A DNA stretch of 64,000 nt from Pelecanus crispus (Eukaryota; Chordata; Aves; Pelecaniformes; Pelecanidae). The first letter of the stretch is position 1; each line of letters opens with the position of its first letter. The stretch covers positions 45,794,221 to 45,858,220 of the forward strand of contig NC_134643.1 in the NCBI RefSeq assembly GCF_030463565.1. The letters are read 5' to 3'. The translations under genes were made by a program, and so were the position numbers. This document shows, in pieces, positions 10,004 to 44,500 of this stretch. Under the pieces are notes generated by a model. It did not search any database and was not told the origin of the DNA. It saw only the letters and a program-made list of their open reading frames with translations.

Positions 10004-10319
10004 CCGGGAGCAACTTTCGTATTTTGCACACATTTATTTATAAAGCCCCGAAGACATAGCTATTGCACGTAAAAAGAGTTGAGGAACATCTGCTTGTGGT
10101 GAATTTAAGATGAGTCCATATTCCAGTGCAGCTGGGTAACAAAAACACTAAAATTGGGCCCCGGAGCTGGTCAGACGGGGTGGCTGCGTTAGAAAGCACA
10201 ACAGCTCTTCACACAAACACTCAGCTACCGCACCCAGCCCCTGAACACTCCATTTGCCTTCTGGTGTTTCCTTTCATCCCGGTGGTTTTGCAGGAATAGT
10301 TCGATTTTTAATGTTAAGG

Positions 10320-10760: not shown

Positions 10761-11442
10761 GCTGTGGAGATTTCTCCCGGGAATGGCGTGCTGTAGTTAG
10801 CAGCTAGAAATTTCAGAAGTCCTTTAGTAGGTTGTGTGCGAGTTAGGAATTTCTAGGCTCTGAGAAGTAGGATTTTGTGTTTTCTGTAAGTAATTTTAGA
10901 CTTGCTCACGCAGTTTTCTGGTGCTAGACTGGTGTGCACCTGTCTTTTGATGAGCAAATTTAACAGAAATTACCGTAAACTTACACTTTATGCCTCTTGG
11001 GCACCCTGGCAAGATATATCAGTGGTTCTGCAGGTGTGCTTAGTACTTCCACCGAAACCTGCTTTAAGGCTTATTTCGAACACTGATAAAGGGGCAGCTT
11101 GCTAGAAATGTGTACTGTGGAAAACAGCCAGAGTCTCCTGAAGAAAGTGCAAGGGGTTACACTGATTTCAATGAATTTGCATCTAGTAATCGCTGGTAAA
11201 AGTTTAAGAACCCTGACATTTTTTACACTGAGTGGTTTTTTAATTGACTAGTGAACGACAGGCACATCCCTAGTTCGGTGAAGTTACAAGACAGGCGTTT
11301 GCAGATTTCTCAAAGCTTTATATGAGGCCTGGGAAGAGGCAGGGCCAAGGCAAAGACATAAATCTTGGGTAGACCATTGGCTGCTGCTCTGTCCATGTGA
11401 AGTATAAATACGTGTATTCATTTTCCTTTTCTTCTGTCTTAG

Positions 11443-11571
11443 AATTTTTAACACCATTTTGTTTTGAAGCTGTTGTGATTCAAACACGTAAGAGACACTG
11501 GGACTATAACGCTTCTTTCTCTTATGGATCAAGCAATTCTTCTTCTGCTTTTATTAAAGTATTTGTTTAAG
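11443..11571 (+). CDS. PTPRQ: PTPRQ long form, first coding exon with signal peptide
   Basis: The ATG at 11524 opens 16 codons, [16 protein letters not shown], ending at a consensus donor (gtaaga, 11572) in phase 0. The run of six leucines with charged flanks looks like the core of a secretion signal. A long pyrimidine tract and ttag acceptor at 11441-11442 imply that about 80 bases of 5' UTR share this exon and that a non-coding exon lies upstream, probably in the CpG island. The start context is fair (G at +4, C at -3). The coding part is 11524-11571. The function and its use are inferred; only transcript data can prove it. Confidence 0.72.
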
Positions 11572-14500
11572 GTAAGAAAAATATTCCCTTTTTTGAAGGT
11601 GGATAGATACGCTAATTGAATGTTGAAAATTGCTGTTTCGTGATTTGGAATGCTTTTTTGTCTTTCTAGCAGTCACAGGGAGCTCTCAATTGTTGCTACT
11701 GAACATTCCCAGTCTTACTTCTATATTGTTGGAAGCTCTCTTGAGACCCTTAATCTGCTTTATTGCCTGGTGCTTCTGGTTTAATGTTGTTCCCCAGAAA
11801 AAGTAACAGACCCCAGCATCTTTAAGTCCTAAGCTAGCTCATACTGCTGTGTACATTGTCACCTTTTGAACACGGTGGAGACATGCATTGTGATGATAGA
11901 AATTCAAGATTGTCTGGTACCCAGGGGTACACTCTTGGCTATGCCTTTAGGAAGTGTACTTCTGCAAGAGGTATTTTGCTTTCTGATCCAAACCTGCCAT
12001 TTGTGGATTAGCCCTTTGGGTTTAATTTGACTGTTATTAGAAGAGCCACGTACGTAGGAACCACACATATCTTTCTGCTTACTTTTCTTATATGCTTTCC
12101 AATAGTGTTGTCCATATTTATCTATATTTAAAGTTTGTATGTGCGGTCTTTATTTTACATTTAGCTTAACATGTTTTGCAGCAAAGGTGATTTCAAACCT
12201 CTGTCAGTTACTGTGGAAATACCACTCCCTTCCTTTGGAGAGCTGTGTATTTGGGGTGGTGAAATGTTTCTGTGGTACTCAGCCTCCCAGTATATTCCTT
12301 CAGAGTATCCGGATAGTGTCTGGTTGCACTGGCCAATTTTGAGCTTGAGAACAAGTGTTTTTTGTGGAAGCCATAGTGCATTAGTCTGTGATCTGCCTTA
12401 GGAAAGTTTCCTGGCAGTTGCACAGTACCTGAGACTACCTGACTCTTAAGGATGGTGGTATGGGGTGAAATAAAAACTTCAGGAAGTTCAGTATCACATC
12501 TCCAGCAGTAGCAAAAAGCAGATCCTTGGGGAGGACTGTAAGAACAATGTAATATGAGAATTGCCTATACTATGTTTGTTTCCCACCATTTGCAGCTTAA
12601 GGGCTTCTTGAGACGGGTGTGGTTGCAGTGCATTTTGTGAGCTTCAATGTCATTCTCTTCTATGAACTTGTCCGTCCTCCTCTGAAGCCCATAGAAACTT
12701 TTAGTACTTGTTTTAAGCTTTGTCAGATAAGCTATTTATCTTGTGAAGAACTGCATCTTTTTGTTTGCTTTGAATCTGGAGCATACCGGCTATGTTTCAT
12801 CCTTCACAGTTCTTGAAGAGAAAATGAAAAAATCAATTTGTGCTAGCTTCTTCTGGCTACTTACGATTTTATAGACCTCTGTTGTATTTCCCCTGAAGTG
12901 CCTCTTTTTCAGGATGAGAAGCTTACTTGAGTCATATGTTGAGAAGTAATTGATAGCAGAAGTCAATACATGTTTGTTGTGTAGGTCTCCTAGCTGGTAT
13001 GTAGCTAGCCTGAAGGTAGATTTGAGCCTTAACTCTTTGGTCAATTTAATTTTTTTTTTTTTTTTTTTTAAATTTCTGCAGTCTTTGAGTGAGGGCCTAA
13101 AAAGTACTGGCAAGGTGCTGGAAACAAAAAGGGACATTCTAAATCCCTCTCATCAGATATAAGTATGGTAAAATTTCTGTGTACACTTGCAAAATTAGTT
13201 CTTGTTTTCAGGTCTAGGAGTATGTATTTCTGTACAATAATACAATATTGCTGACAGTAGAAAATCATTCACTTTTTAAATTCAATTGTTGGCACATACA
13301 CATTTTTTAGTATTTTTAAAAGCAGATTTTCCTGCATTTTGGATTGTTTCGACTAGGCAAGCCAGCTATACACCCATCAATTAAAAGCCTGCTACTTTTC
13401 CTGGAAACATCTAATATCCTTAAATGCTTTTGTGTATGCCATCATTTTAGTCTAGTATGTCCATTCAGGGGCTTCCAAGAGGTGGTATGTACTCTCTTAT
13501 AAAGGGTTTATAGAGATTAAAGGCTTTACAAACTTTATAAAGTTTATACTTTATAAAGTGTGATCTAAACTCTGAACATTAAGATCTTGATAGATTTATA
13601 GAATAGAATCATAGAATCATAGAATCATCTAGGTTGGAAAAGACCTTTAAGATCATCCAGTCCAACCATTAACCTACACTACCAAGCCCACTCTAGACTA
13701 ATCAAGGGTAGACCAGACTAAACCATATCCCGAAGTGCCACATCTATACTTGTAGTTTGTCTTAGTTGTCTAAGACAACTTATAGTTGTCTTAGTTTGTC
13801 ATTAGTTAAAGGAAGTTACCTTACACTAAACCAAGAGTATGTTGTGTTAACAGATAGGAAAGAGCTGAGTGTTTTGTATTTGGGGGTGGGTTTTTTTTGT
13901 GTATGTGTGTAGTAGATTGCTTTACAGGACAACGCAATAATATAATAATAAAAATGGTAACTTTTAGTGTACTAGGGTTCCTATTCATGCCTTGATTTTT
14001 GTTTTGGTTTGGTTTTTGAACTACATTTTGAGTTCATTGTTAAATGATGGCATTTGTTTGTCATCCCAATTCGTAAAGAAAATAAAAATGGAACTTAAAA
14101 TGCAGGACTGCAATCTTTTAATAAATGTTACGTGATAGGGATTGGCATCACATGGCCCAATTTCTCTGAATTTTAGAAGTGTGATTCAGGTTTATATCTT
14201 GTTAGATAGAAGCAACCCGTAAGTTTCTGGTTTCAAATGAAATTCAAACATAGAAAGAACCTGCTTCTCTAAACAGCTAAGCCAAAGTCCCTCAAAGGCA
14301 GGTACAGTTATTAAAAAGGTAGTGTCAAAAATACAGAAGACTTGTGTCTAGAATGAGTTGACCTCTGTGAGAAGTTGAAACGCTGAACAAAGTTTGTACT
14401 GCTGTGTCTAAATTGGATTGGTAGGGAGGTGTTTAGTAAATTATTTCTTTACCTCTTGAACACTTCTGGTTCTTGTTCTGAGAAATTTGGAAGTTGTGAA

Positions 14501-17500
14501 AACGATGCTACTAAAGTCTTTACCACGTAATTTGAGAATAGGACTGAGACCTCCAACTCCTGACTGACTGCTAACTGTGATTGCATAATGTACATTACAG
14601 GTGAAATCTCTGACCTGGTTTCTAAAATGATGGCAGATTTCCCTTTTCCTAGTAGGGCATGTTTGGGTCCGCTGACATGGTTTGGCCACCTCTGGAGAGA
14701 GAATGAAAAATAGAATCTGTACCTGCAGAACTTGGAAAAGGTTATGAAGCCTCTGTGTGTTACACATTAGGGCTGGTAATACTGGTCTGTATAAAAACTG
14801 TTGCTAGCTGACAAGTTCGAAGTAGTTAAAATCGACAGAATTTAATTAGTTAGTTAGAGGTATATTTTCTGCATTTTCTACTAAGTTGCATTCATATGCC
14901 TTTCTGTTACAGGTTTCAGAGAGTCTAGACTGTGAGCCAGTGAAAAAGCCTACTGGAGTGGTTTTGATGGAGTGGACTGAATTGCCTGAAGGAGAGGATC
15001 CAGACTATTATATTGTAACATACCAGCGCGTAGATGCTTTCAGTCAAAAAGTAAATTTCGTCAATCTAAGTGATAAGTAGTTCCAAATGTATTTAAGCTG
15101 TAGATACCAGTAGTTAATAGCATTGTGTATGTGTTTGTTTTAAAAAAATAATATGAAATAGCAAATAAAGAGAAAATTTGGAAAAATTGTACTGAATTCT
15201 GTAATTCCTGTCATTTATATGCACTCTTACAGAGTCCTACTGAAGCCAGTGGGTCTTTTAAGTCCCTTGGGTATCCTGGTTGAATAAGGATAGGTAGGCT
15301 TATGTTCCAAGTTAAGAATATGCAAGTTCTTCAAGGTACTGTGGTTTGAAGGAGGAGTCTAACTTCTCCAGGAGAGGCAGAGACACTACCCCCAGATCTC
15401 TGTGGGAGAGCATTGTTCTTATTTTGAGCATGGGATGTTCTGGAACGTAAAGAAAATAGGGGGATTTTAATATGAAGGTGTTTGTTAATAGTTTGATTTC
15501 TACAAAATGTAATGGGTATTTTGCAGTTTAACTGCAGCCTTAAGTTTGACGTGCTGCAATACAAACTACGTTTTTAAAAGCTTCATAGATAATTTATGAA
15601 TTGTGTTTTTATTACTTTCACTATATCCAGAAATTCTTTTAACTTGCAGAATGTAAGAAACGTTTCTAAAGTTGAACAGAAACCTGTCAGTACTACAATT
15701 CTGCTTGAGGAAAATAAGAAGTATGATATTACAATAGAATCTCTAAAAAATGGCCGAATCATAAGTGTAAAATCATTTAAGACACGTAAGTAGTGTAGCA
15801 CAAAAATATTTTAGTATCATTATAGTTAGTCTAATACTGAAGATTAAAGAAGTAAGGGTTGAAATCCTGAGCTTACTCATGTATTTAGAAACTTTGCATC
15901 AACGTATGTTTTAAACCATGAAGAGTAGAAGGAATAATTTTTATATAACTCATTTGGTTAGTGTAACAATTCTGCGGTAAGGGACTGATGTAAAAGTTTG
16001 AGAGATTTTCAAATATTACGGGCTTTGCTGTACTGCAGTAATTCTAGGAGAAGAGATTTATAAAAGTGGACCTTTGAGAAAGTTACTTAAAGCCTGGCAG
16101 TTTCATATCAACGTAGGATTGTGATTGATTGTCTTACAAAATATATTGGTTAAATATTAAATATTTTTGTTTCTACTTTATGACAATCCCTCTTTAAAAA
16201 GGGTTAATGAGTCGCTTGAAGATCTTAGTATTGTGACTAAATGGGGCGGATTTTTAGTATAAGAATTTATGAGTCTAGCCACTGAACTTAAAAAAACCAC
16301 TGTTTATAGCTGTAAATCTGTTCAGGACCACAAGTCCCACATATAACTAGAATGAAAGGGCTTTTTAATCTTAATTTTGTTAATTGCTTTTAAACAGTTT
16401 ATAGTATTACCTTTGTACACATTACAAGCTCATACTAGCTTTGGAATACAGTCTAGGATCTGAATACAAACATCACTGGGGAAAATACATAGTAAGTTGG
16501 AAACACTGCAGCAGCCATTGACTCTGCCTAAAGTGAAGATGTTTAGCAAGCTCCAGGAAATAATTCATGGTTTTGCTAATAATGTGTTACTGTACTTGAC
16601 ATCTATTACTTAACTGATATTCTAGAAAATCAGTTTACTGGTTCTAGTTTATTCCTTAAACTGTGCTCTTAACTTTTACTTCTGGTTGCTTCAGACAGAA
16701 GTTTATATACCATGACAATAAAAAAAGTGCATGACTTCCTTAATTGCTCAGCAAGACATTTTCTGTTTTCACACTTTCTTTCCCTACTGTATGTATCCCT
16801 CATCACTTCTTAAAAAAAAAAAAAGCAATAAACCTGTGAACTAATTATTCTGTTGTGGTAAAGGCAGGTTTTGGTTTTTTTTTTTTTTTGTATACTAGGT
16901 GCAATTTCAGAAAATGACATCAAAACATTTGTGACAGCTACTACAGTGTCTTTTAATTGGAGTACAATCAGTAAAGAATTTTCAGTTTCAGTTTCACTGA
17001 ATGATACTTCTCAGATTATAAAAAAACCCCGTGGATTCTTTGTATGGAGTAATTTGACACCTGCCACCTTATATACATTTAAGTTTATATTTGAACAATT
17101 ACATCTGGAATTTATAAATGTGTCTCAGTTACTAGATGTTCAAGCTGAAACAGGTATGTATTAGAGTTTGTTGTAGTCACAGTGAATGCAAAGAAGCACT
17201 GCATATTTTCTAGAACAGTTAAGAGTAAATTGTAAAAAGCCTGTATTCCATTTTACAGTTTTTTAATAGATGTGGATTGTTTCATTTCTAGAAAGCTGAA
17301 AGAAATTGAGTGTTAATGACATCAAAAGTTTATTTCTAATTAATATTTCATAGTATTTTTAGGAGCAAGAATTCAAATTTGTATGTGCAAATATTTTAAG
17401 CTAACTACATTTTTTGCAGTCTAAAGTATCAAATAAACATTGAGGTTTGGCATTGTAATTATTTGAGTGTATGGATTGAATCTGCTATATAGTTTCAATG

Positions 17501-20500
17501 AAAAGGCAGGGAAAATCCTGAATTTGGTAAGGATTTGGGATACTTTTTGCCAGCATTCAAAGTGATGGGTTTGTACTACCGAGTGGCTAACCTAGCTACG
17601 CTGTTTTGTTACAAGTGTTTTGAAGGAGGCAGGATTCTGAGGATGTTATGGCTTGACTGTGTAACTTCATTCCTTTAAATGTGCTACTCTGATAATGCAA
17701 CTTAAAATCTTTAAAATTAGGAACACAAAAGAAGGGATGATAGAGGCTCAAATTCAACTAAATAATTATTTTTCTAAACTCAGGAAACTATTCCAAACAA
17801 ATGATCTGGTAACTCCAATTTTAAAATTTAAAAAATGAACCGTCAGGAACTAAGCTTAAAGAACACCTGAAAATTAATGGATCTCTTTTTGCTTCAGTGG
17901 GTTGTGTTTGGTACTCTTTAATTCAGTCAATCAGATTTTTTTAAGACACTCAGGATTTTGAAGGGAGGTCGATTCATAATTACTGAATTTTTGGGGGCTT
18001 GCAATCATGAATTAATCAAATGCTGTCATCATCTTCACAATGTCTGTGTAATCATAAAAAATCTAAAACTGTACTACTGCCATAAATAGTACCGAATATC
18101 TTTAAAATCCTGTCCTTGTTCACCTCTAGGCACCTGTTCCCAAGGGTGGGTGGCATTCCAAAGCAGTTGCTATCAAATGGGTAAAGAGAGCAAGCCGTGG
18201 AAGGTGGCACAACAAATCTGCGACATGTCTTCACGAGGGGCACATCTTCTTGACATAGGGAGTGAAGAAGAACGTGGTTTTATTTTGTCTTATCTCCAGA
18301 CAATTAATCAAATAATCATGTTATGGACAGGTCTTAATGACCTAAAGGTTAGTCTATTTTATCTTCTTTGTTATTACACATGTGGAAGCAGGAGAATTTT
18401 GAATACAGAGCCCAATTCTTTGGAATAAAAACTGCTATGCAGTAAATAGGTTAGTTTTTTCTGTAGTTGTTAGTAGTTATAAGAGGAATCATTATTTCTT
18501 CTTATTAGAAATACTGAAAATATTTAGCAGGCCATAGCTGGGAAAAAAAAGACATAGTTTATACAAAACCTGTTTAATTTTTTTTGTGTGTGAGTACTTT
18601 ACAGGAATATTGTTGTGCCTGTAGGTGGTGCTGCATTACCAGATTTTAAATCTTATTCTCTAGGCATGTTACTTACTATGGATATCGAAGTCTGGGGTTG
18701 GCTTTCTCAGTTTTGATGCGGGTCTGAAATGTTGAATGTTGAGCTTAGCAAGGTCTGTCCAGTATGGATGGATGCTGGATAGGCCAGTGGAAGAAGGGAT
18801 TGCAGCAAGGTATTTCTTGTCAGAAGTTTCCTGTTCCTCATATTTGGTATATGAGGGTTCTTAATGCCAGCTCTGCTGTTATTAAATGACTCACTGTGGT
18901 GTGCTGTGTGATTTGGGAAGAGCTACAGAGGTAAATAAAAGTATTGGGAAAGCTCTCAGAAAGATGGAGGCACTCTGCCAGAAATGTGGGATCCAGTGTT
19001 CCTGTGATTAGGCTTAGTGAAAACTTCTTTTGTGGTAAGTATCAGAAGGTTGGGAGGAAGCCACTGTTTTTTTGTTTGGAAAATGTATGCTCTGAAATTT
19101 AATTTTAGTACTGTTTTGGTCAGATTAATTTTAAAAGAAATGCTGTGAAAATGAGTAAAAAGAAAGTAAACTTTAAGGATAAGAGGTAAGTGATAAACAT
19201 GTCATAGACAGAAAATTTCTTTTTTGCAGACTCTGTTAAATAGCATAATGGGGCTAACATAAACAGTCAGAGTGGAATAACACGGAAACTGAGGAAACAC
19301 AGACCTGTCTAGGTTTGTGGTTAGAGAAGCACTCTAACCTTCCTGGTTAATAAAGCACCAGTAATATATGGATTTTACATGTTTTATGCATGAGATTTTA
19401 GAATCCTGTAATTTTTACACCATAGTAATATTAATCTTAACCAACTTGGTATTTTAGAAATAAGGTATTATTTGTAAGAGGTTGCCAGAAATAGATGTCC
19501 CATGAAAGCATAATATTTTTGCAGATTGGAAAGAGTGCTAGAAAGATATTGGTGGTTGGGTTTTTTTTTTCTTTCTTTTTAAACTCTGATTACACAGAAA
19601 AGGGTTAATTACCGGTTTGGAATTTGACTGTTAGTCAACTGTTTAATCATTACATGCATTTTTATGTTTGTGGGAGTCTAGTCAGTTAAATGAACTAGAT
19701 GAGTATGTTGTTTTAAGAGTAGCAAGGGATAACAAAAAAAATGCTTGTTTTTCAAGCACTTCTTTCCTAAATATTTCTGTTTAATTAGGATGTTCAGGTA
19801 CTGTCTGAACATGTTACAGTCCTTTTAAGTGTCATTGTTGTCATTTGCTCTCTTATGAAAACTCCAAATGGTACTTACACCAAATTGTACTTACTCCAGG
19901 CGTTCAGAGATTATGGGACGTATGCTAGGAATTGCAGGACTTGTTTAAAATCTGAGATTAAAAAAACCAGATTCAGTTATTTTTGCTTTCTCTTTCATAT
20001 TTGAACCACTAGGGAGTTAAATTTCTGATTTCAAGTTTTTTTTCTCCCAGTACCCATGGGACTTGAAATATTCTATGAAATTAAATGCAAGTTGAGACTA
20101 GAACCTACTCAGAAGACTTCAGCAGCCTTAGGAAAACTGCCAAGCACTGTGACACTGATAAAAATTAGTGATACTGTGAGCAGGGTTAGTTCTATAGCAT
20201 TTGTATTCTCACAGTTTCTCCTTCTTTAACCCTATTTTGACCTGTATCTGCATGCAAACCCTTCCTGATGAGGGTGAGTGTTCTTGTGAAAGACCGCAGG
20301 GACCCTGGAGACGTAGGTCAGTGTGCTGGGTAAGAATGAATGGAGCACTTTGCTGATACCCTCATGTCTGTCCTGATACTCTTTGCAGTTCTTTAGAGTT
20401 AGGAAGTGGGAAAGGTGGCCAAAGACTGTTTGCTGAGGCTTCTCTTACAAGCCCTGTTACAGAGGTTTGTATTGTAGCAGTATCTTGTGGCTTCCTGTGC

Positions 20501-23500
20501 TTGTAGTTAACTCCGGTGCCCAGGAATATATTTAAGAAAAAGATATGCATTGATCTACACAGTATTTTTGAAATGGCAGGCTAGATGCACAAGTCCTCCT
20601 GGAAGTCAAGTTGGATTATTTCATACCATTGAAAATCTTCTTCGCTTTCTTGGGAAAATGAAAGAGATCACAGTATTTTATTTGATTTTTTCCAATTCAG
20701 TGGGTGAATTGAAAAAAATGGGCTTAGTCGCAACAAACATGATTTTTGGTTGTTTTCTCAGAGAAAAGGAAAAAATCTTTTTTCTCCTCCCCCTCCCCTC
20801 TTTTGAATATCTTTAAAAAATGGAAAAGCAATGGAAGTCTTAAAATCATGGTGGTACCTCAACTTTTCTCCCTTACAGTACTTAAAAGCATTTACTGAGA
20901 TTGTAGGACCACAGATTTGCTATGCCTGAAAGCACTTAAGCTAGTGTACCTCCTGAGAGTGCTCCAATGCCATGCATGAATGTGTTGGGTTTTTTAATCC
21001 CCTGTAGATGTTAGTATGTGTTAGTGCAGTCAGACTAAAACCTGCCTCCCACTAGAGGGGTCTGTATTGCAATGCTGTGAGCATGTTCTACAAGCATCTT
21101 TCCTTCAAAATATCATGTTGCCCCAGCCTAGTATTTCTAGGGTTCTGCTGGAGAAACTGAAAGTACCTCAAAGGTTACAAACTTTAAGTTGGGTGTGAGT
21201 GAGTGTCCTAACCACTGAGCTACTTGCCAATGGGAGAAGGGGCAAAAGACAGCACTTCCTCATCTGATTCATCTGAATCTAGCCCTGGATTTTTTTTCAG
21301 CTAAACTATTTTTGCTTTCAGACTGAATTTATGAACATTTTTGACTGAATGAATTTTTTTTTTGAGTGAATAACATTTTTAGAAAAATTATCCATCCATG
21401 ATTATGAGATTATTTGATTAATAGTGATTTTTAAATGTTTGTTTGTAATGATCAAACACTCTACATTAGCCTTATGTGGCTTTTATTATATTATATTAGT
21501 ACCTTGTAATCTGTTGTAATAGAAGGGATAGAATTTTGCACTGAAATATGTACTTCATTCAGAATGTTTCTATATAATTAATTTGTATAAATGAAGTGTG
21601 TAAATTTTTGATGTTTAGATGATATCCTTGCAATGATGAAAGCCTTAATAGTTCATCAATATAATGTAAAAATACATGGAGTTTTTATTTCTTTTTTTTT
21701 TTTTTTTTTTTTTTTCAATGTAGGAAGAAGGTCAGCTGTTGTGGACAGATGGATCTCCTTATCTTCTAAAGGCTGGTGTCTCAACTTTGTCAATGATACC
21801 AGAAAATGAAACTGACTGCTATGCCCTTCAGAGAGATCCCACTGGTCCAGACTATTTCTTCACAGGATTTTTCTGCTATATACAGCTACCATATATTTGT
21901 GAATATGAATGTAACTATATTTCTTCCAATCTTTTGCATTTATTTTTAAAAGCCTTCCCCCCAGTTATGTTTATCTTTGAAGATACAAATATAAAAAAAA
22001 AAGGTTTTCATGTTTTTCAATTATTTTTTTCTTTTTTGGTGTTCTTTTTCAGTACCTCTGGTACCGGAAAACTTCACGTTTAGTGTGCGTGATGTCAAGA
22101 CAACTGAAGCTGTATTTATGTGGAGTGATATGGACATATGGCTTAAGTCAGGCTTTGCACTTATAATTAAATACTATTTTAATCAGTGGAAGCCATACAT
22201 TCTGAGCTTGCCTGTGAATACAACTGAAACAAAAATTGTGCAGTTGTCTCCTGGCCTTTGCTATAGTTTTTTATTAGCAGCAAGGAACCCAGAAGGGGCA
22301 CAGACTACCTTAAGTCCAATTCTGAAAGTAGAAACAAGTAAGTTACAAAAATAAATAGCAGTAATAACCAGATAATCATACACTCTTTATATTTTTCCTT
22401 TAATTATGCTATTCCTTTTGTTGATTTTTTTTTTGTCTGAAAATATAAATAACTCTGAACATGAATTCTGAATCCAGGATTGACCAGTTGGTATAGTGGA
22501 TTCCAGTGTCTTCATTTTGGTTGTGTGCAAAAATGCTTTATTGGGATTGATGTGGGAAAATTCAGGAGTTTTCAGTGGCCACAAGCAGAAGGCCAGCTAC
22601 AAATTCTGCTTCTGTGAAGTGTATTTTAAAAGCTTGTTCTTACCTTAATTTTACTCACAGAATTCCTGCTGATGTCCAAAGGGAAAGCTGGATGTCAGAG
22701 TAGCAGTAAGGTATTGTTTGGCCATGCTGATGAAAAGCAGAAGCATACATTCCAATCTGAAGTAAAAGATTTTGTTGGAGTAAACAGAGATATCCTTATA
22801 TACCTGCGGTAAAGATTAAGACAGGCTTCATGGTTTAAAAATACATTGCGTTTTGACCCACTGCATGATGCAGTATGGCCTAAGAAAAATTCACGAACCA
22901 ATTAACTTGTGTCCTAGTAAAATCTAGCTGAATGAAGCCAAATGAAACCTGCCAGTTGGTAGAGATGAAAAGTACCTTTGAATCTTAAGGTGATCAAATG
23001 GATGTGTCCTCAAGGAAAAATTACTTCATGGACACAATTTCAGGTGCAGATTTTCTTCTGGTTCCTCTTTCTGTGGTACTGGGAAAATACCCAGATTTGC
23101 AAAAGTTAAAGAAAACCTACTGCCCTAACATTTTTACCAATTCTGGCAAGGCAGTCCAAATATGAGACAGAGGTCCATTTTCCTAAAGTCAGAACAAAAT
23201 ACTGATTTTTCTGTAGGGGAAAGAACTGTTCCTTTCCTCCAGCAAGTACATTTTGTACAGTTCACTTCTTCCCCTGGGCTGCTTTAGTGCACTTGAAAGT
23301 CTTCCTGTCTCCTGTGCCTACCAGCTTCTCTGTTCCCTAATCTGATGGTTTGTTTTCTGTATATAAGACCTTGTAATGCAAGTTACCTCTATAATGGAGG
23401 AAAGATATTCTTGCTTTCTCCTATGAGAAGCAAATATGTGTTTTACCTCAGAAATCAGCTTTTCAGCTGCAACATTGCTGCCTACAGAAACATAATTGTC

Positions 23501-29500: not shown

Positions 29501-32500
29501 TAGCAGTGTCACTATTCTTGGCTAGCAGAGTAACTCACCCTAGGGAGACACCCACTATTGCATTGCTTTTTGGTTGTAGAGTTATAGCTAATAATAAACT
29601 ACTTAGTATCTTACAGTTTAGAGGTAGAACAAGAAAGGATCTTACTAGTATAGGAAAAGTATGCCTCAAAAACATGTTTGGATTCTTTCGAGTCATCAAA
29701 CATGTGGTAAGGGAGATGCAATTGATATATGCTTTGTGGATTTCCAAAAACCTGTTGGTGAGATTCTCTTACCGTGGCTCTTAAAAAAGCAGCCAGTGTT
29801 TTAAACTGACCTAACAACAGGGAATAGAATCATAGAATCGTTTAGGTTGGAAAAGACCTTTAAGATCATCCAGTCCAACCATTAACCTACACTACCAAGT
29901 CCACACTAAACCAATCAAGGGTAGACTAGACTAAACCATGTCCCCAAGTGCCACATCTACCTGTTTTTTGAACACTTCCAGGGATGGGGACTCCACCACT
30001 TCCCTGGGCAGCCTGTTCCAATGCTTGGCTACCCTTTCCGTGAAGAAATTTTTCCTAATATCCAACCTAAACCTCCCCTGGCGCAGCTTGAGCCTATTTC
30101 CTCTTGTCCTATTGCTAACCACATGGGAGAAGAGACCAACACCCACCTCACTACAACCTCCTCTCAGGTAGTTGTAGAGAGCGATAAGGTCTCCCCTCAG
30201 CTTCCTCTTCTCTAGGCTAAACAATCCCAGTTCCCTCAGCCGCTCCTCATAAGGCCTGTGCTCCAGACCCTTCACCAGCCTTGTTGCCCTTCTCTGAACA
30301 CGCTCCAGCACCTCAATGTCTTTCTTGTATTGAGGGGCCCAAAACTGGACACAGTATTCCAGGTGCGGCCTCACCAGCGCCGAGTACAGGGGGACAATCA
30401 CCTCCCTGCTCCTGCTGGCCACACTATTCCTGCCACAAGCCAGGATGCTGTTGGCCGCCTTGGCCACCTGGGCACACTGCTGGCTCATGTTCAGCCGGCT
30501 GTCAACCAGCACCCCCAGCTCCTTTTCCACCAGGCAGCTTTCCAGCCACTCTTCCCCAAAAGATAAAAGTAGTTTTCACAGTGGAGGCAGGTTGTCAGAT
30601 GGCTTCTGGGACCTGTTCTGTCCAAAACATTCATAAATGATCTGGAAAAGTGAGGAAACACAGAGGTGACAGAGTTTGCTGATGCAAAGTTACTCAGGAT
30701 AGTACAGATGAGAACGAGTAAAGAGTAACTGTGGAAAAGACCATATATGCCTCAGTGGCTGGATGTTAAAGTGTCAGATGCAATTCAGTTTAAATAAGCG
30801 TGATACACAAGGCAAAAGTAACCCAAATTTCACACATATGGTCAGCTCTGAGCTGACTGTAACATTCTCTAGAGTGATATCTTGAGAATATGATGGGTAG
30901 TTCCATGAAAAAGTCAGCATATAGCTCAGCAGCAAAGTAAAAAGCGGCTGGGATGTTAGAAGAGATTATAGGACAAAACAGAAAATGTCGCTGTATTGTC
31001 TGTAGAAATCCAGGTACTCTTGCCTCTTGAAGACAGCATGCAGTTCCGATCCTGTTAGGTTGTGGGATAAAAAGTGAGTGGGCCAGCTCTGGGTGAGAGA
31101 GCATCTGTGTATCTCTAAGGGCGAGAGCACCAGGGACTTGGGAAGTCCTGGCCAGCTCTGTGTGTGCCAGCAACTGGGGAGACTGGGATCGAGGGGTGTC
31201 TACTGGGCAGACTCAGCCCAACTGCTGGGGAGATCCACCTTGTACCTATGTATATAAGTATTGTTACTAGTGGACCTCCATTCTCAGCTGGAGAGGGGAG
31301 CAGGATGAGGCCGTTGGTGCTGTCCGTGTTCCTGTGAGGGCTCTGAGTATCTGTCTGTGATCTGTGTGTGTATGTGGTGCATATGCGTGCTCTGTGTGCG
31401 TGTGCCTGCTGGGCATACGGCTTCAGCCTTGCTGCTGGTTGGACCTGGCATCATGGCCTCTCAGGCTGTTGGATCTGGCATGTTATATTTTCCTCTAACA
31501 GGTCCCTAATGTGAAAAAGTAAAATATAGTACATGCGATCGAAAAGGTTCACCGGAGGGCAGCAAGTGTGATCAAAGATACGTAATGTTTTGCATTTAAG
31601 GAACTACTGAGCTAAAACTGATACAGGAACAATGATGTAATGTAAAATAATTTGTGAGAGGATAAGTCACGGAGAGGTAATTATGGAGCAAGTAAGAAAT
31701 GATAATTCATTGACATGTCCTTTACAAGAACTAAGGACTTGAAACTAGAAGAGAGCAAGTAGAAAACAAGCAAAAGGAAATGGTTGTTTATTAAATTTAT
31801 AGACAAGTTACAGAACTTCTGGCCACATAATATTTTGTGTGATGATTATGGTCATAGGTTAAAGTGGAGACTGAAGACATTCGTAAAAGAGGAATTTGCT
31901 GAGGTTTACTGAATTCACAGAAATCACCTTTGGCTCAGGAAATCCTTGGGCTGCAAACTGCAGTCTGGGAGATTACTGAAGGGGATTATCACTCTATGCA
32001 AGTCTTGCTTTTCTGTAGACATATGCTTTTGGCCACTGTTGAATACAAGATACTGTGTTAGTGGGAACTTTGGTCTCAGCTGAGTATCTTACCTCTTATA
32101 CAACATTTCTTTTCTTGAGGAATTGTCTGGTTTTGAGGAACTCCACATTAGTGATGTCAGATCTGCACTAAGTAGCATTACAGAGCAGCAAGCAGTTTGG
32201 CTCTGAATCTCCTGGATAACAGAAGTCCCTATAGACATTACCACAGCAGTATTAGTCTGTGTGTCCTTGAGATAAGCAAGGACATGGACATAATTTTTCT
32301 GGAGTTTTAGTTGCATTCTGATGACATGAATCCTGTCATAAAGTAATGTATTTAAAATGTATTTTTAAAGTAATGCATTTTTTTTTATTGTCACACAGTA
32401 CCAAGCGCAGTTAAATATCTGAACTATAGCAGAGACTCTGAATCAATAACTGTTACCTGGCCATCAGCCCAAAATATGTTTGATGGATATGTTATTTCAA

Positions 32501-35500
32501 TAAACAGTAAGGTGTTCAACGAGGAGAAAATGTTACCTTCTGGTGTAAGGTATGAAGATTACGTTTGAAAAATAACTGATGTGAACTCAAAATAGATGTT
32601 TCACTGTATATTTAAAATAAGTAGCCTGCAGTGTTACTTGTATGTGGCATATATTTGATGTTTTAGTTGATACACATTACTGTACCCTCGTGAAAAAAGA
32701 TCATTTTAAGAATTGCATTTTTTAACAAATTACAAATCTCATATGATGCATTTGTGCAAAGAAGAGCAAACAAAATACTACGCTGGAGTGAGCACCAGTA
32801 GAATCTGTGTGTCATTCTGGATGTTTAATTTAATCTTTTAAGTCTTGAACTTGCTGTGAACCATAGTGTGATGCATCCTATGTAAGGTTTCATCATACTA
32901 AAATAGCTTTTGACCGACAGCATATACACACGTGTAAATAATATCCATAGTACTATAAAGAATTAACATATGAAGATACATGCATTTTTAAAATCCTAAA
33001 GAACATCATCTCTTTTGTTAATCTTTTGTAGAATGTACAAATTTGAGAGTCTTCTGCCAGGCACTGATTTCTTAATCAGTATTGTGACAACCAATGGATT
33101 AAAAAAAAGTCACCCCACCATCCTCAAGATTAGCACCTGTAGGTTCACGGTTTGTTAATAACTTTTCATGATTTCAGATAATTAGGGTTGTTACATTTTA
33201 AGGCACTGTATAAGAAAAGCTATTCCTTATTAAATCAATGCATCTTAACAATGACTGAATTAATGTATCTATGTCTTTCTTTTGAATCTAAAACATCCTT
33301 GAAAGCAAATAAAAGCTTTCAAAACACAAACAGGTTTCCTCTGTAGTTAATGGGATTCTGCCAGTAACTGAATCAGCAGTAATACTAGGATGATAAAACT
33401 TTTCCATAAAAACCTACAGACATTGATTTTATTTCTGATTCTATTGCTAGTATGTAGAGGTGAATTTAATTTATTTTATATTCTTCTTAAGTACAAAATG
33501 AGATCTGTTTCTATAATGAATTATAAAATAATGAATTACAGCAATCTTCTGTAGATGTTAATTTCCTTTAAAGTAATATAGATTATTTTGATATTAAATT
33601 TTGCATCCACTCCTGTCTTTACCTCAGATCCAGATCCACCATCAGATTTACAGGTGTTTGGGCAAGAAGAAAATACAGTCTATTTTTCTTGGAAACTACC
33701 AAGAGGAGGATTTGATATGTTTCAGGTGAGATATGTGAAGAAATCAATGCAATCCTTTTTTTTTTTTTTTTTTAAGATTTCAATGAAATTATCATCCTGT
33801 ATGTACTGCAGACCCAACCATAAATATTTGTCTTTATAACCCACATAAGCATGGGAGGGAAATACTGCTATGGGAGATCAGCTAAATACATATTTCATAT
33901 TATGTAACAGTTTTTTAAAAGATTATAAAATTATGCTTTTAAAAGCTTTCAAAAACTGTTTTTTTCAGCTAGTGTGCAATAAAAAAGATTACAGGTCAAG
34001 GGTTGAATGCAACTGCAATGTAATCTTTTTTTCTTAGCTTCCCAAATTTGTAATACAAATTAATTTCATTGAGCTGCAGAATAAAAAATTCATTCTATAT
34101 AGGAGGATCTAAATGGTTTGTTTTTTTTTTTAGAAAGTTCCAGAATAAGACTTTTTTTTTTAAATGTAGCAACTTACAAGACAAAACTGCAAACATTTGA
34201 TACCTTCTGTACCCTCCCAGCCTTGGGCACTAAGGAGTTTAGGGATTTCCTGAGTGATAGGTTAAAATGGGATATACATGAGAAAAACAGTGAATGTTTT
34301 TTCTGAATTTGTTTGATCCTTTATATTTCACAATTTTGTTATGCCCTGTTTGAAAGAGTACACTTTTTTTAATTTTAAACCTGGTATTTTTTAGGTTCTT
34401 GTGGTACTAGAAATAGCTAGTACTTCCCTATTCACCATACCCATACCTTTCATGATTTTATAAGCTTTAATTTCCCAGTTGTCTCTTGTGCAACATTCTT
34501 ATGTCGCAGCTGTTCTCCATCTTTTATTATTTTTTTCTTTAATCTTTCTAAGCCTTTGATATTATTCTTGAGTTTGGGTGTTCACCTAGGATGTGAGTGC
34601 ATAATGGAGTTATCAAAAGGTTAATAGTGTTTTCTGTTTTGCTTCCTATTCCTTTCCTAGGCAATAACATGCTGTCCACCTTTCTGACTACTGTCAAACT
34701 TTTTTAAAAACCTCTTCTGTGGACATTTCAATTTGAGACAGCTCAGTTTGACTCAAAATTCATAGTTCATTGATAATGATTCTGATGAGAACATCCTTGA
34801 CCATTGAAACAAATAATTCGGTTACTATTTCTCATAGGGACCTGTCTATACTGAGTGCTCCCTTTCTGCTTTGGTCAGCTAGTGGCCTCCCCAACACCTA
34901 GATAAGCTTATTGTGTGTTTAAATTATCGTTTTCATTAGTCATTACAGCATTTTCAATTTGCGCTTTAGTCTCTCTTGGCCTGCTGACCTGTGTTTCTGC
35001 TCGGCCCTACTTCCCTGTGCTTAGAATCACAGAATGGTTCAGGTTGGAAGGCACCTTAAAGATCATCTAGTTCCAACCCCCCTGCCATGGGCAGGGACAC
35101 CTTCCACTAGACCAGGTTGCTCAAAGCCCCATTCAACCTGCTCTTGAACACTTCCAGGGTTTGGACATCCACAGCTTCTCTGGGGAACTTGTTCCAATGC
35201 CTCACCACCCTCATAGTGAAGAATGTCTTCCTTATATCTAATCTAAATCTACTCTCTTTCAGTTTAAAGCCATTACCCCTTGTCCTATCACTACATGCAC
35301 TCGTAAAAAGTCCCTCTCCAGCTTTCTTGTAGGCCCCCTTCAGGTACTGGAAGGCTGCAATAACGTCTCTCCACAACCTTCTCTTCTCCAGGCTGGACAA
35401 CCCCAATTCTCTCAGCCTGTCTTCAGAGTAGAGGTACAGCCCTCTGATCATCTTCATGGCCCTCCTCTGGACTTGCTCCAGCAGGTCCATGTCCTTCTTA

Positions 35501-38500: not shown

Positions 38501-41500
38501 CTTAAGCCATATTCTTGGGGGTTTTTTGTCTTTAAAATGTGGAAAATACTGTAAATACTTTTATATAAACAGGTAGTTGGAATCTATGAACATTACTTTT
38601 ATGAAGTGAAATAGTCCGATGTAAGAAATTATTTTTCTTCCATAGCTTTCATATCGTCTGATGAATAATGACAAAATGCTTACCAGAACAGTTTACGACA
38701 GCAGAGCTGTAGTGAAAAATCTGGTCCCTGGGGCAGAATACTTTTTTCAATTAAGGACCGTTAAAGGCTTGGATTCCTCTGTGGCTGTGGAGAAAAAAGT
38801 CATCACAAGTAAGGAAATACCTTATAATTTGCTTTTTTTTTTTCTTTTTGAAAAACGGTAAATGTTCAGAGACATTTAAATCATTGTATGTAAGTGACTC
38901 AAAAAGGTCTCACAGTTCAAAATGAAAATTTAACTTGAGGGAGCAAGTTTCACTTCCTCTTGTGATAGTTGTTTAAACAGAAGCCTTCTGTGTAACTCGC
39001 TGTGTTGAAGTTGAGGAGTCTAGACATAGTGACAGATACCCATTTGAAAAAAGAGGCGGACTCACAAAGTTCTTCCGGCTCTAGCAGAGTAAGATCTTGC
39101 CAGAATAGGATCCTATACTTTTAAGAATTACCTTGCATTTTGTTTACAATTGTTTCTGTATCTCTTAAATTCTTGCAAACCCATGGTCTAAGATCGGAGG
39201 ATTGCTGCTGTACAAGGCCACAGAATGCTTAAAAGAGTAAGAGGAATTCTTCAGACAGTTTGACAAGGTCCAGAAAATTAAGCTGTATCCTGCACTCATT
39301 TTCTGTCTCTGAGCAAACATGGATTTTCCAATGCTCCTGTGATACAGCATAAAAAGAGGAGAGCTGTGGCAGAGATTTGAAGGAATAGATTTATATTGGA
39401 TTCTGGACTGCCAAAGTAGATAAAGAGCAGCTAAGTGTAATCAGAAAATAAATCAACTCCCAGATTTATACACATGCATGTCATAGACCTCCTCCCTTCT
39501 TTGATGGATTTTCTGTGGTTTGCTTGGACTATAACTCCTTAACTCAGTTAGTAGTCAAGGAGGCTCTGCACTTAATTATTCAGAGATGAGCGAATCTCTG
39601 AAAAAAAACAGACCTAGTCCTGCAGATTCTTGTTAATGAAAATCACAGCAGAATAATCATCATCATGGTCCTGAAGGTGCTTTTTATCCTCAAGCAAATA
39701 TTTAAGAGTACTGTGGATGAGTCCAGTATATGGCTAGATTATGGTGAGATTACTCTGTCATTTTAATGGCAAACCTTTAGGATTTTTTTCATGCTGAATA
39801 ATCCAGCCTGCAATGGGATTATGCTGATTAGTATTTTTCAGAAAGCTTCAAGCAACATAAATAAATAATCTGGAAGATTCATTTCTTAGGAGGAATGGAA
39901 ACATTTTTCTTTTCTAACAGCAGCTGTGCTGCACAGATTAATGGAGGTGCTACTTGTAAATAATTCTCTTTGACTTTAGGAATCTTAATATAACCAAAAC
40001 GAATATTTAAAAAGGAAAAAAGGGATAATCACTGAGACTATGCAATTTACTGTATCCCTATGTGAACAGATGACATTTTCTAAAATTATATGGCCTATGA
40101 TGTGTTTTAGAAAACTTCTAACTGAAGAAAATCTCTACTTCTGTTTACCAAGTGTTCCATTCTCATTCTGTTTCACCAGTGAGCAATGTTACAGAAGATC
40201 TGATAAGTCTGGAATTTTCTTCCATAAATTACATAGCACACACAGGAGGTACATCCCCAGATTTTACCCTGTTCAGCATAATGGCACTGTTTACTATATA
40301 TCTATACAAACATACTTCCAAAATTTGTATGAATATTTCATGATGCTGTGAACCCTCAAATAATTGAAATAAAAAACATTTATTTTTAAAAGATGGTACT
40401 TTTCTTATATTTTAAGGACTATACATTAATTTTTTTGTTATTAATGTGAATAATTTTTACTGTAGAACCAGCTGGGATATGCGGTCTGGCATTAAAAATG
40501 GTAAATACTTCCTCTGCAACTTTAATGTGGAATCCAACCAAGACTAACTTCACTTCTTATAAAGCATCTTTATCAAACAGTACATTTATAAATAAGTTCA
40601 GGATTCCAGGAGCACTGACTGACTTCAGTGTTACCGACCTGACTGCTGGGGGCATTTATAATTTCACACTGCAAAGACTAAGAGGAAATATTGAAGGAGC
40701 TTCTGCTTTCATTGAAATTGTAACAGGTCTGTATGGTTTCTTGCTTTCTCTCCTTGCTGGTGAATGGTAGCTGTCAATAACAGTGCACGTTTAGCTTTGT
40801 ACATCTCATGTTGTGGAATTTCAAGAGATCTTCATGTAATAGTTTGCTATGGTTGTGGACATACATTACTTATACCCTCTTCAACCTGCATCTAGTGGTA
40901 CACTACCAGAAACATAACTTCTTTAGCCGTGCTGCATTTCTTTCTACCATTTTTAGTATTTTCGTTATTTTTCAGGTCTTACCCTGCAAAGAGTTATGCA
41001 CGAGTTGAGTTTTACCTTACCTGATTTCAGCAGGTTTTTTGCAGTGAATGAAGTTAAACAAGTTTACAAATGTTTGTAGAGTTAAGGCTTTAGATTGTAA
41101 ACTACTCCATTCAAGGACTGTTTCTTATTAGATTTGTGAGAAAAACTTAGTGGGGCAAAATTTCAGTCTTGACACATGTGTCTGCAGTTTACTGTAATGT
41201 AATAATGTCAAATACAGATGAAATTTAAAGAGCAGAAAGATGCACCAGAACTATCTCAACCAATTTCTTTTACTACTTTCTTATACTCCTTTTTGTAGGG
41301 GTTTTTGTGGCAATGGCATGGTGGTATGAGAGAGACCTGAAAAGTGTTGGAAGTTGTCATTGATTGACTACTTTGACCAAATGTCATGACATTTGTATGT
41401 CTGCTTTTGGGATCAGTGCTTGACAAACTGTTGGTGCTTCTGACTCAGTCAGGGGAACTGAAGCAAGAGGTCAAAGAGAGCCTTTAAAATAAAGTGACAT

Positions 41501-44500
41501 AGTGGTGGAAATCCTTACATTTGTTTTGAGGCAATGTCTTGAGGGTAAAATTAATAAGAAAAAATCTTGTATGTCTTTTAAACTAGGACCACAATGCTAT
41601 AATACTTTAATTGTAATTAATATTTTTTCTAATGCAGGAAGTTTTAAGTCAGTTTGGTTGACCTAATTGTACTTCCTTTTACTTAAATGTATTGAGATTA
41701 CATTGCGACGTTGAGCCTGCTGGTTTGTAATGGTTAATTTTTGGAAAAATTGACATGTTGTATTTTGCACTCCATGTTCACTGATGTATCTACTCAGCCT
41801 CAAATAATTTTCAGTCCCCTCACTCAGAATATATATTGCAGACATTAAGCAGTATTTTTGTAGGTGAAATTGTGAAATTTACAGCAAATTGCTCTGACTA
41901 TGCTTTACACAAATATTCTGGCTATATACTTTATACAGATATGCTGACCGCTGCTGGTTAGAAGTGTGTGTGCATGGGCATGAAACAGGGAGGAAGACTG
42001 TAGAAGAGCAGGTGCAGTGAGGCTCGAGTGAACCACACTCACATATGCATTCCCTGATTATGTGGTTAAATCTGCAGAAGGGTAGAACTGAGGCTTTTTT
42101 ACAGCGTCGCTAGGAAGGGTAATTCTCAGTCATGGGATAATAGTAGGAAGAGTATTAGCTTCATGGGACTAAATTTAATGCTCTCTTCTACTGCTGAGTC
42201 AGAAGGAATTCAACTGAGGTAGAGATGACTTTGTGATAACTATACACTCAGAGATTAATCATGGGTCTGTATAAAAAGAGCTCTATAAGCATAAAATCCA
42301 GCTTTAAAGGAAGTTGAGATCCATGGAAATAAAAGTACTGATGATAGCAGTAGGACTTAAAATTTATAAAAGTATATTAAAAGAAAGAAATTATGCTCTC
42401 AGTTATACTTGCACACCTCCACATGTATTATTAATTATTTTTTTGGTTCTGTTAGTATTAAAATAAAGCAACAAGTTAAAAATCATATATATGTATAAGA
42501 CAAATACAGACTGAATATAAAATCTAGAGGTAATATTTGGATATATTAGTATTTCAGATAGATTATTTGATGGTAAAACTGGAGTAATCTGTTTGAAACG
42601 ATTCTGTAACTTTGGATAGTCAGTGTAAAGAGTTAATGAAAGATATATAACCTAAGCAGATTTACAGTAAATAAGAAAGGAGTGGAGCTCTTTCAGGATG
42701 GAAGTGATATGATATTCAGACTGCACAGTATGATATTAGTGTATAAACAGTACTAGAATATTTAGTCTGAATTCTGAAGAACCATGCTGGTAAGGCAGAC
42801 AGAGGACTGAGTGCAAGGGTAGTGGCCAATCTGAAATGTGACGAATAGCATCGCTGACTGGGCTTGCACTGGGAGATAAGCATAGGGACAGCTGTTAGTT
42901 GTGCGTACTTTCCAAAGTAGAAAGGAGACAGATGCACATGGCTATGCATTGCACAGGTGGATAAATTACACAATAATATAGGTAGATAATATTTTAATGA
43001 CCTATTGAAGAAGCTAAAATCTAGTTCATTGTTAGGCTTACAGTGGATGATACAGATTTAAAGGTGCATTTAAAGGCAGAAGAAAGTGAGATGGTGTGAC
43101 AAGAGTAGGTGGAAACTTAGCTTTAATAAAAGGAGTAAAACATCCAAATTTGGGGGAACTAACTCGCTAGACTTCATGGAATTACTGGGATTCCAAATGC
43201 ATAGAAAGTATAAAAGAGTTAACGACCCTCTGGCTAGCAACTGAGCAAGCACCAGCTATATCTTGAATTTCAACAGTAGCATTAGTTATGACAGTAGTAG
43301 CGCTAACTTTAAGGTTGAGGACAGCAGAAACACCAGGACTGTGCAGAGATTCTTTGTTAACTGAACACTGCGCAGATACTTGAGCTTGCTCTCTGCAAAT
43401 GGGGATGTCTGCACAGCGTAGTTGGGAGGTTGTCAGCCAAGTCTCAGAGGTAGTATAGCAACTGTAGTATAATATACTGCTGTATCCAGGCTAATTAGCA
43501 ATTATCCTTCATGTAGCAAGTAAACTGTTCTTGGATGCTTTCATATTCAGTTGTAACTACTAATAAATTTGTAAAGGGGGTTATTTAAGTTAATGTCTTT
43601 TATTCCACAATTCTCTTTCAGAACCTGCAAAGCCAGAAGGACTTAAATTCTTCAATGTTTCATCATACTCTTTTTCACTGTATTGGAGACTACCGTATGG
43701 ACATGTAGACAGATTTCATGTGGATCTTATTCCTGATCATGGCTCTATTGTTATCCTAGATCTTGGAGTTAGGGAGTATCAAGTATGTGCTTTTATTATA
43801 GGACTTGCATGGCCAGCTTTTCCTTATGCACTGTGCTGATGAGGAATTCAAGCTTGCCTCCTTAGTGATTTGATGCAAATATGAAAATGAAAGTTTTAAT
43901 GAAAAATTGGTGACAGCAAATTTCAGCATCCAGAGTTTGTTACCTAGCAACAAGTAGTGAATTTACTTTTTTTTTTTCTTTTAAGTCTGCTAGAAGGATA
44001 CAGCCAGTCATCCAAGGGTTCATGAATAGTTTAACAAAGGAAGGGCAGAGCTATTGAGTAATACAGACTCATTAATTGTGTACTTGCCAGGAAGATCTGT
44101 GCTTAAATCATTAATGCAGGCAACATTTCACTGCTAAGCCATCAAACAGAAATAGGAGCACTTTTTGATTCTGCTGTCTGGAAAATATAATAATATTAAC
44201 AGACATAATGGTTGTCCTGGTTGTTTTGCTTTTGCTTTTCATTGGAACTGCAGAGATACAGGTATTTTATATAAATGCTTGCTAAAAAGTTGTTAATTAT
44301 GTTTATTTCAAAAGATGGGCTAGCTTAAGGGTCAAAAACTTCTAAGTTTTTCAGGCTGCTTTTGTGTTTATTCTTTCAAAAAGGCATTTTATAATGCTTC
44401 GTATTTACTTTGATAATGATGATGATACAGAAAAACCTCTATAGATACACTGATAGGTGATTCTGTGATAAAATTAATAGTTAATTCTGTTGTTCTTTAA

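Follow-up and report, generated by a model that had tools for sequence, protein, structure and literature searches.

The window analysed here, a 64-kb stretch of the Pelecanus crispus genome to which all coordinates refer, holds on its + strand the 5' part of the gene for the R3 receptor phosphatase PTPRQ, which continues beyond the window to about +157.7 kb. Two exons able to open its coding sequence lie ~33 kb apart, one (E1) at 11524 and a short-form start at 44208, the latter within the intron between E18 and E19, so that its entry point falls in the middle of a fibronectin type III (FN3) domain (Table 1).

Table 1. PTPRQ exons and an upstream CpG-rich element in the 64-kb window
Feature	Position	Strand	Basis or remark
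CpG-island-like stretch	10101..10880		0.64 kb 5' of the E1 ATG; candidate promoter of the long form
E1, long-form start, signal-like, 16 codons, phase-0 end	11524..11571	+	predicted long PTPRQ N-termini match
E2, FN3-like domain, first half	14913..15050	+	homology; donor weak (-0.8 bits)
E3, FN3-like domain, second half	15650..15785	+	homology; E2+E3 fn3 only E 0.015
E4, divergent FN3-like domain	16899..17153	+	homology; Pfam fn3 only E 0.1
E5, C-type-lectin-like domain, N-terminal half	18130..18347	+	Lectin_C E 1.9e-10
E6, C-type-lectin-like domain, C-terminal half	21724..21910	+	homology; donor weak (-0.6)
E7, FN3-like domain	22053..22337	+	fn3 E 0.008, below cut-off
E8, FN3 domain	24024..24308	+	profile, homology
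E9, FN3 domain	24977..25246	+	profile, homology
E10, FN3 domain, 87 aa	26433..26693	+	profile, homology
E11, FN3 first half	28213..28343	+	profile, homology
E12, FN3 second half	28513..28642	+	profile, homology
E13, FN3 first half, phase-2 end	32399..32549	+	profile, homology
E14, FN3 second half	33032..33138	+	profile, homology
E15, FN3 first half	33628..33725	+	profile, homology
E16, FN3 second half	38646..38808	+	profile, homology
E17, FN3 domain, 87 aa	40466..40726	+	profile, homology; acceptor weak (-1.5)
E18, N-terminal half of FN3 domain that E19 completes	43622..43782	+	profile, homology
Short-form start, signal-like, 18 codons, phase-0 end	44208..44261	+	inside E18-E19 intron; homology
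E19, first shared exon, FN3 C-terminal half	44729..44840	+	profile, homology
E20, shared FN3 exon	45646..45872	+	homology
PTPRQ exon, shared	53777..53846	+	homology
PTPRQ exon, shared	56562..56774	+	homology; 5' edge approximate
PTPRQ exon, shared	58126..58375	+	homology
PTPRQ exon, shared	61553..61682	+	homology; 5' edge approximate
PTPRQ exon, shared	62476..62622	+	homology

The two start exons and the upstream island

E1 encodes 16 residues and is followed directly by GTAAGA, the 44208 exon encodes 18 and is followed by GTATTT, and the sequences ..TTACAG and ..TTTCAG precede 14913 and 44729, respectively. As the initial annotation had claimed, both ATG exons are open and close in phase 0 at GT donors, and the joins of E1 to 14913 and of the 44208 exon to 44729, read directly off the sequence, are in frame and both in phase 0. 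Its figure of 1095 extra residues stands as the number of codons ahead of 44729 (18 upstream exons with consistent phases, 3285 nt, exactly 1095 codons), but the long and short forms differ by a net 1077 residues, since 18 residues of the short form come from its own start exon.

A chance origin of these signal-like ATGs was rejected on a scan of 214 kb together with the homology of both exons elsewhere. The scan accepted ATGs opening 12-30 codons that include a hydrophobic core of eight residues (mean KD >=3.0) and end at a phase-0 GT of >=0.8 bits; on the + strand only two distinct ATGs fit, and these are the two starts, while two also fit on the - strand. Since the thresholds were chosen after the sites were known, the chance estimate is a rough guide only, and at the level of sequence it is homology, both exons being matched in other species, that decides the reality of the two starts.

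The stretch upstream of E1 has a GC content of 0.62 and a CpG observed/expected ratio of 0.89, against 0.26 for the whole window, and its position suggests that it belongs to E1. In a hamster protein (P0148), PF00094, presumably the VWD domain, stands ahead of PTPRQ sequence; we take the upstream neighbour to be OTOGL and read P0148 as a fused OTOGL-PTPRQ model. The exons of this neighbour map to the + strand from -20331 to 317 of the window, and the island was rejected as its 5' end. It is possible that the island serves an unannotated non-coding transcript.

Gene identity and the lectin-like domain

E1-E20 (1208 residues) align without gaps to a predicted penguin PTPRQ at 94.0% identity, and the penguin protein maps in order on the + strand from 14901 to 157694, reaching residue 3375 of 3386 (rows above 70% identity kept; E1 too short to show; residues ~1602-1708 and ~2233-2323 without a kept row). 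An FN3 array, a transmembrane segment (a hydrophobic exon at 130413, assigned without a predictor) and a single phosphatase domain are thus found in one collinear gene, and the reading frame at 151626-151967 contains FTSWPEHGVPE, carrying the WPE that the PTPRQ phosphatase loop has in place of WPD (PMC5336234). The FN3 introns of PTPRQ are given in the same source as following the mixed patterns 1:1, 1:0:1, 1:1:1 and 1:2:1. The upstream exons likewise mix 1:1 (E4, E7-E10, E17), 1:0:1 (E11/12, E15/16, E18/19) and 1:2:1 (E13/14); E2/3 has the pattern 0:0:1, and 1:1:1 was not found among them.

The initial annotation had missed a lectin-like domain in the upstream part, as well as the probably ancestral status of the long form and the truncation of an FN3 domain to its C-terminal part at the short start. 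The Lectin_C profile matches with 41.9 bits against a cut-off of 22.6, and the top-scoring solved chains are a yolk sac IgY receptor, a PLA2 receptor and lymphocyte antigen 75, multi-domain chains whose scores were summed over several domains. Calcium-dependent sugar binding in C-type lectins involves the motifs EPN or QPD, plus WND. Across 23 aligned rows checked by eye, none of these was seen at the aligned places, which read PEN, PKN, PHN, PAN, PSN, etc., and FTG, FTR, FTE, etc.; an N-x-S/T sequon beside a conserved C is retained in 23/23 rows. The extracellular region of PTPRQ has been stated to consist of FN3 domains only (PMC10815196), and the Lectin_C match sets the long form apart from that description, which applies to mammalian forms and beside which the collinear orthology stands. 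In a literature search mostly confined to papers outside subscription, neither bird nor mammalian PTPRQ was seen to be described as carrying a C-type lectin domain.

Distribution of the two forms

Homologs used here were, as far as could be seen, predicted proteins, and the comparison sets of 21 and 16 proteins were hand-picked and nonrandom. Long PTPRQ with the lectin-like domain is predicted in birds, turtles, squamates, some mammals, frogs, and bony and cartilaginous fish, and E1 matches predicted long N-termini from birds, turtles, squamates, mammals and frog. These long predictions (~3000-3400 aa) have in common the E1 start, the lectin-like domain, the FN3 order and the E18-E19 join, but each model carries one start or the other, unlike the two starts of the pelican locus. 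Matches to E10 are missing from one Sarcophilus and one pig model, and matches to E17 from some annotated models. The long-form search admitted candidates 0.55-1.75 times a length of 1959 aa, each cluster showing one name, and among the 120 of 124 matches listed no primate, rodent, rabbit or tree-shrew names were seen. The prediction of the lectin-bearing part across these vertebrates leads us to regard the long form as probably ancestral, and the familiar mammalian PTPRQ may be only part of that ancestral receptor.

The short mammalian first exon to which the initial annotation had likened the 44208 exon proves orthologous to it, with 49 of 249 retrieved proteins (a set that includes a few non-PTPRQ) beginning with it; 51 were first counted with a start <=40 aa from E19, and P0128 and P0132, without a signal, were dropped. 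By name, the 49 retained comprise 44 placental mammal, three bird and two squamate entries, the bird count being a lower bound (120 of 149 matches listed; database clustered at 90% identity), and other bird models of similar length among these matches begin in or upstream of E18. The two short-form searches (50/50 and 120 of 149 listed) excluded proteins above ~2196 and ~2970 aa and could not return full-length long forms. When 18-residue starts from other species were searched against the 214 kb, five of six had 44208-44261 as their best match (E 5.4e-5 to 8e-3), whereas the sixth, from woodpecker (P0165), missed that exon. In two species, Muntiacus reevesi (P0079, P0125) and Sus scrofa (P0090, P0192), the annotation includes both starts. 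Among the primate and rodent entries, which came from searches that excluded full-length long forms, 24/30 have the short start and 0/30 the lectin domain, and use of both starts therefore need not be universal.

Alternatively spliced 5' exons of human PTPRQ were reportedly described by Schraders et al. in 2010. The human reference form has 2299 aa and 45 exons (PMC4412678); in human and mouse it opens with an 18-codon first exon ending ..IGTSE.Q (ape and mouse entries) that continues into the same half-FN3 exon, and differs from the bird long form in having neither the lectin-like head nor exons 1-18. Human c.55-2 is placed in intron 1, so that exon 1 measures 54 nt, equal to the bird short exon, and c.16_17insT is one of the listed PTPRQ mutations and lies in exon 1 (PMC9310072). 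That source also speaks of 58 exons and of an older numbering 218 residues higher (Arg457, now Arg239), so upstream coding exons have apparently been seen in human; a hearing-loss missense variant is elsewhere given as R281G (PMC10815196), and set against Arg457/Arg239 this suggests that the printed numbering may be inconsistent. The picture was thus known already in pieces (database models, a row in a 2004 Fugu table, reported extra human 5' exons), and the literature search found no paper that combined them. We take PTP-GMC1 to be the rat name of PTPRQ. A table of Fugu CTLD proteins has one row for PTP-GMC1 and another (CFN3) with CTLD and FN3 domains; a CTLD is listed, as in the bird long form, and the table itself mentions no second start (PMC514892). 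A 2021 paper on splicing in the chick cochlea gives PTPRQ a single mention, as one of the genes that increase along the tonotopic axis.

Alternative readings and implications

The reading of two alternative first exons yielding two forms is supported, the testable points being in its favour, and we put at roughly 80% the probability that bird PTPRQ uses two conserved alternative first exons to give a long and a short form. A rather improbable competitor holds that the bird uses the long form only and that the 44208 exon is an untranscribed evolutionary leftover. Its donor is indeed weak, at 0.9 bits (for E1-E20 the 20 donors span -0.8 to 7.5), and short starts occur in three bird models among the matches listed, against many long ones, though that count is properly at least three. 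Against this, the 18-codon length, the start, the hydrophobic core and the end pattern persist in mammals, squamates and birds, a conservation that one would not predict for an exon out of use. A hair-cell antigen of 275 kDa (PMC9900141) is also a better fit to the short form, calculated from sequence at ~256 kDa, than to the long form at ~377 kDa.

That the upstream exons form a separate gene or transcript ending before 44208, with PTPRQ proper beginning there, could draw on the CpG island that the 33-kb span has to itself and on the many mammalian models beginning at the short exon, yet the half-FN3 join and the collinearity argue against it, and it was rejected as the least credible reading of all. 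E18 breaks off within an FN3 domain, and only E19 supplies the rest: the two together give one fn3 match (41.8 bits, model 2-81 of 84), whereas the short-form N-terminus covers only model 51-82 (17.6 bits, below the 25-bit cut-off). The single penguin protein runs through both parts, and E18-like and E19-like exons are directly joined in 170/170 of the retrieved proteins holding both, a scoring in which 9 of 112 lectin-domain proteins went unscored with one exon under the score limit. An E19-like match occurs in 227 proteins, eight of which have neither E18 nor the short start; in one of these, barn swallow model P0119, an E15-like exon is joined to E19. It is also very unlikely that one promoter at the CpG island serves both forms, the short exon being reached by splicing as an internal exon. 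No CpG lies within 43900-44262, hence no island-type promoter, and an acceptor-like AG at 43986 (4.7 bits) equals several model acceptors, but AGs of this kind are frequent (the + strand of the 64 kb has 226 scoring >=3 bits), tissue-restricted genes often have promoters without a CpG island, and the exon stands first in 49/49 proteins that contain it, though a 5' untranslated exon would be invisible in protein models.

Under the two-start model, we infer that this bird transcribes both first exons, each from its own promoter. A distal transcription start, probably at the CpG island (10.1-10.9 kb), would use E1 and yield a receptor of ~3380 residues comprising a signal peptide, FN3-like modules, one C-type-lectin-like domain, more FN3, a transmembrane segment and a single, phosphoinositide-type phosphatase domain. 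The second start, within the E18-E19 intron and without a CpG island, would use the 44208 exon spliced to E19 and give a form of ~2300 residues, the counterpart of the reference protein in human and mouse, without the lectin-like head and with an N-terminus keeping only the C-terminal part of one FN3 domain. The choice of form would set the reach of the ectodomain and its binding face. More tentatively, and at slightly less than even odds in our estimation, ancestral vertebrate PTPRQ would have been lectin-headed and ~3400 residues long; amniotes would have added the intronic start, making a headless hair-bundle form; primates and rodents would have largely lost the head exons, the human and mouse protein being a derived truncation; and birds and reptiles would have kept the ability to alternate between long and short versions of a coat or link protein.

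The main role of the deafness gene PTPRQ, whether in the stereocilia surface coat or as an enzyme, has been described as unclear (PMC9900141). If the lectin-headed form, with ~1080 more residues, is ancestral in vertebrates, the mammalian form that has been studied may lack the ligand-binding end, and birds would be the obvious system in which to ask what the head binds and whether link length is set by the choice of form. The finding also makes the upstream exons of PTPRQ worth checking in mammals that retain them and, if these exons are transcribed, in unsolved human cases.

Exon structure and identity of the proposed two-start gene

The open-frame and splice-site scan placed 18 exons between 11524 and 43782. 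Their phases are mutually compatible without exception, and they sum to exactly 1095 codons ahead of 44729, the number of extra residues that the initial annotation had assigned to a long form of PTPRQ. Both ATG exons that it had described, at 11524 and 44208, were present on direct reading, and exons, phases, and homology support its proposal of two PTPRQ first exons as far as gene structure is concerned. Among 16 proteins compared, the closest were those of wood stork (94.6% identity) and penguin (94.0%), which marks the source as a bird. Residues 13–3375 of the 3386-residue penguin PTPRQ mapped collinearly to + strand positions 14901–157694 (hits of >70% identity), with two stretches of ~100 residues each lacking a kept row. 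The 100 kb downstream of the window carried additional FN3 exons and one hydrophobic exon, as well as phosphatase sequence whose WPE loop is the mark of PTPRQ (PMC5336234). The arrangement of two candidate first exons is a real, conserved feature of the gene.

The same-strand upstream neighbour is presumably OTOGL. Two hamster models join neighbouring proteins to PTPRQ, in one a presumed VWD-domain protein runs into PTPRQ at E19, and in the other PTPRQ runs into a presumed helix-loop-helix protein (P0148, P0158); these fusions are probably annotation read-through of neighbours.

Coordinates of features discussed (window positions; E, exon)
Feature	Position	Strand	Remarks
Upstream neighbour exons	225–317 and 20 kb upstream	+	end just inside window
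CpG island	10101–10880		sole strong island in window; GC 0.62, o/e 0.89
E1, long-form start	11524–11571	+	16 codons
E5 + E6	18130–18347, 21724–21910	+	lectin-like domain
E10	26433–26693	+	
E13 + E14	32399–33138	+	
E17	40466–40726	+	
Short-form start	44208–44261	+	18 codons; E18–E19 intron
E19, E20	44729–44840, 45646–45872	+	shared by both forms
Retrotransposon open frames	49448–52353	+	intron between E20 and exon at 53777
Open frame within these	49450–50085		no Pfam match
Second CpG-rich stretch of window	50921–51220		inside retrotransposon region
Reverse transcriptase	51534–52352		RVT_1, E 6.2e-32

Origin and proposed use of the short start

In 170 of 170 retrieved proteins having both, an E18-like exon was joined directly to an E19-like exon, which disfavours a separate upstream gene. 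The remaining 57 proteins with E19 comprised 49 with the short start and 8 that begin or join otherwise, and both starts are annotated in each of Muntiacus reevesi and Sus scrofa. The 49 (of 249 retrieved) begin with a 17–19-residue signal ending G[TSA].[EK].Q immediately ahead of E19 and, among the matches listed, include 44 placental-mammal entries, three birds (Dryobates, Hirundo, Pogoniulus), and two squamates (Candoia, Rhineura). When foreign signals were compared with 214 kb of the window and flanking DNA, the short-start exon was the top match, over all 18 residues, for five of six; it was not the top match for the Dryobates signal. On these matches, the exon is orthologous across amniotes. 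Against the 84-position fn3 model, E18 + E19 cover positions 2–81 and the short start only 51–82; the short start joins the gene midway through an FN3 domain, which suggests that a longer gene already existed when this start was inserted.

Given the upstream CpG island and the absence of any CpG within 43900–44262, we infer that an island-type promoter would drive the long form and a tissue-restricted promoter the short form. An acceptor-like sequence scoring 4.7 bits at 43986 would permit an alternative, in which the short exon is internal to a transcript.

Content and age of the long form

E1–E20 (1208 residues) aligned without gaps to penguin PTPRQ, and identity was 85.3% in emu, 72.0% in turtle, 57.4% in cattle hybrid, 46.8% in frog, 45.7% in gar, and 41.6% in ray. 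Starts matching the 16-residue long-form start were identified in squamates and turtles, mammals, bony fish, and one frog, and the long form would date to the jawed-vertebrate ancestor. A homolog search with residues 17–700 matched 124 proteins, and no primate or rodent names were seen among the 120 listed. Of the upstream part, a primate model (Saimiri, P0244) keeps only the E18-like exon and a rodent model (Fukomys, P0245) only E11–E12-like exons, joined to E18; these are possibly stages of erosion.

E5 + E6 scored 41.9 bits against Lectin_C (cut-off 22.6), with IgY receptor, PLA2 receptor, and lymphocyte antigen 75 as the top-scoring solved chains. All 23 rows of an alignment spanning birds to cartilaginous fish (one row incomplete) keep an N-x-S/T sequon beside a conserved cysteine, and the letters of calcium-dependent sugar binding were not seen in these rows; the domain would bind protein or glycoprotein rather than bind sugar in the classic way. 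The modules on either side are FN3: eight stretches individually pass E 0.1 in Pfam, and three others are classed as FN3-like (E 0.008–0.1).

Among 21 models chosen for unusual length or clade, seven had one whole module as their sole large gap: 87 residues at E17 in two pigeons, a turtle, and a ray, 87 residues at E10 in Sarcophilus and pig, and 86 residues at E13 + E14 in a gull. An eighth model, a pigeon, lacks E17 alongside other gaps, and in a kakapo model 60 residues of E10 are missing. Because whole modules are absent from annotated models, phase-matched FN3 modules may be skipped singly, as cassettes.

Published PTPRQ and hearing

The extracellular part of R3 phosphatases is described as solely FN3 domains in PMC10815196, which agrees with the human PTPRQ form. 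Parts of the two-start picture were seen earlier, since a 2004 survey table has a row for a Fugu CTLD protein named PTP-GMC1 (PMC514892) and the human exon count is given as 58 in some papers (including PMC9310072) and 45 in another (PMC4412678). No paper combining both starts was found in a literature search largely outside subscription journals.

The PTPRQ hair-cell antigen has been reported at 275 kDa (PMC9900141), and the D10 antibody detects PTPRQ in chick hair bundles (PMC5005036). Masses from sequence are ~377 kDa for the long form and ~256 kDa for the short, and these reports fit the presence of the short form in hair bundles, gel masses being rough for glycoproteins this large. The human variant c.16_17insT was reportedly found in a deaf family. 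It is listed under exon 1, which has 54 nt, in a mutation table, and homozygous c.55-2A>G, at the acceptor after exon 1, accompanies severe to profound hearing loss (PMC9310072). An exon 1 of this length places c.16_17insT within the short start, suggesting a role for the short form in human hearing.
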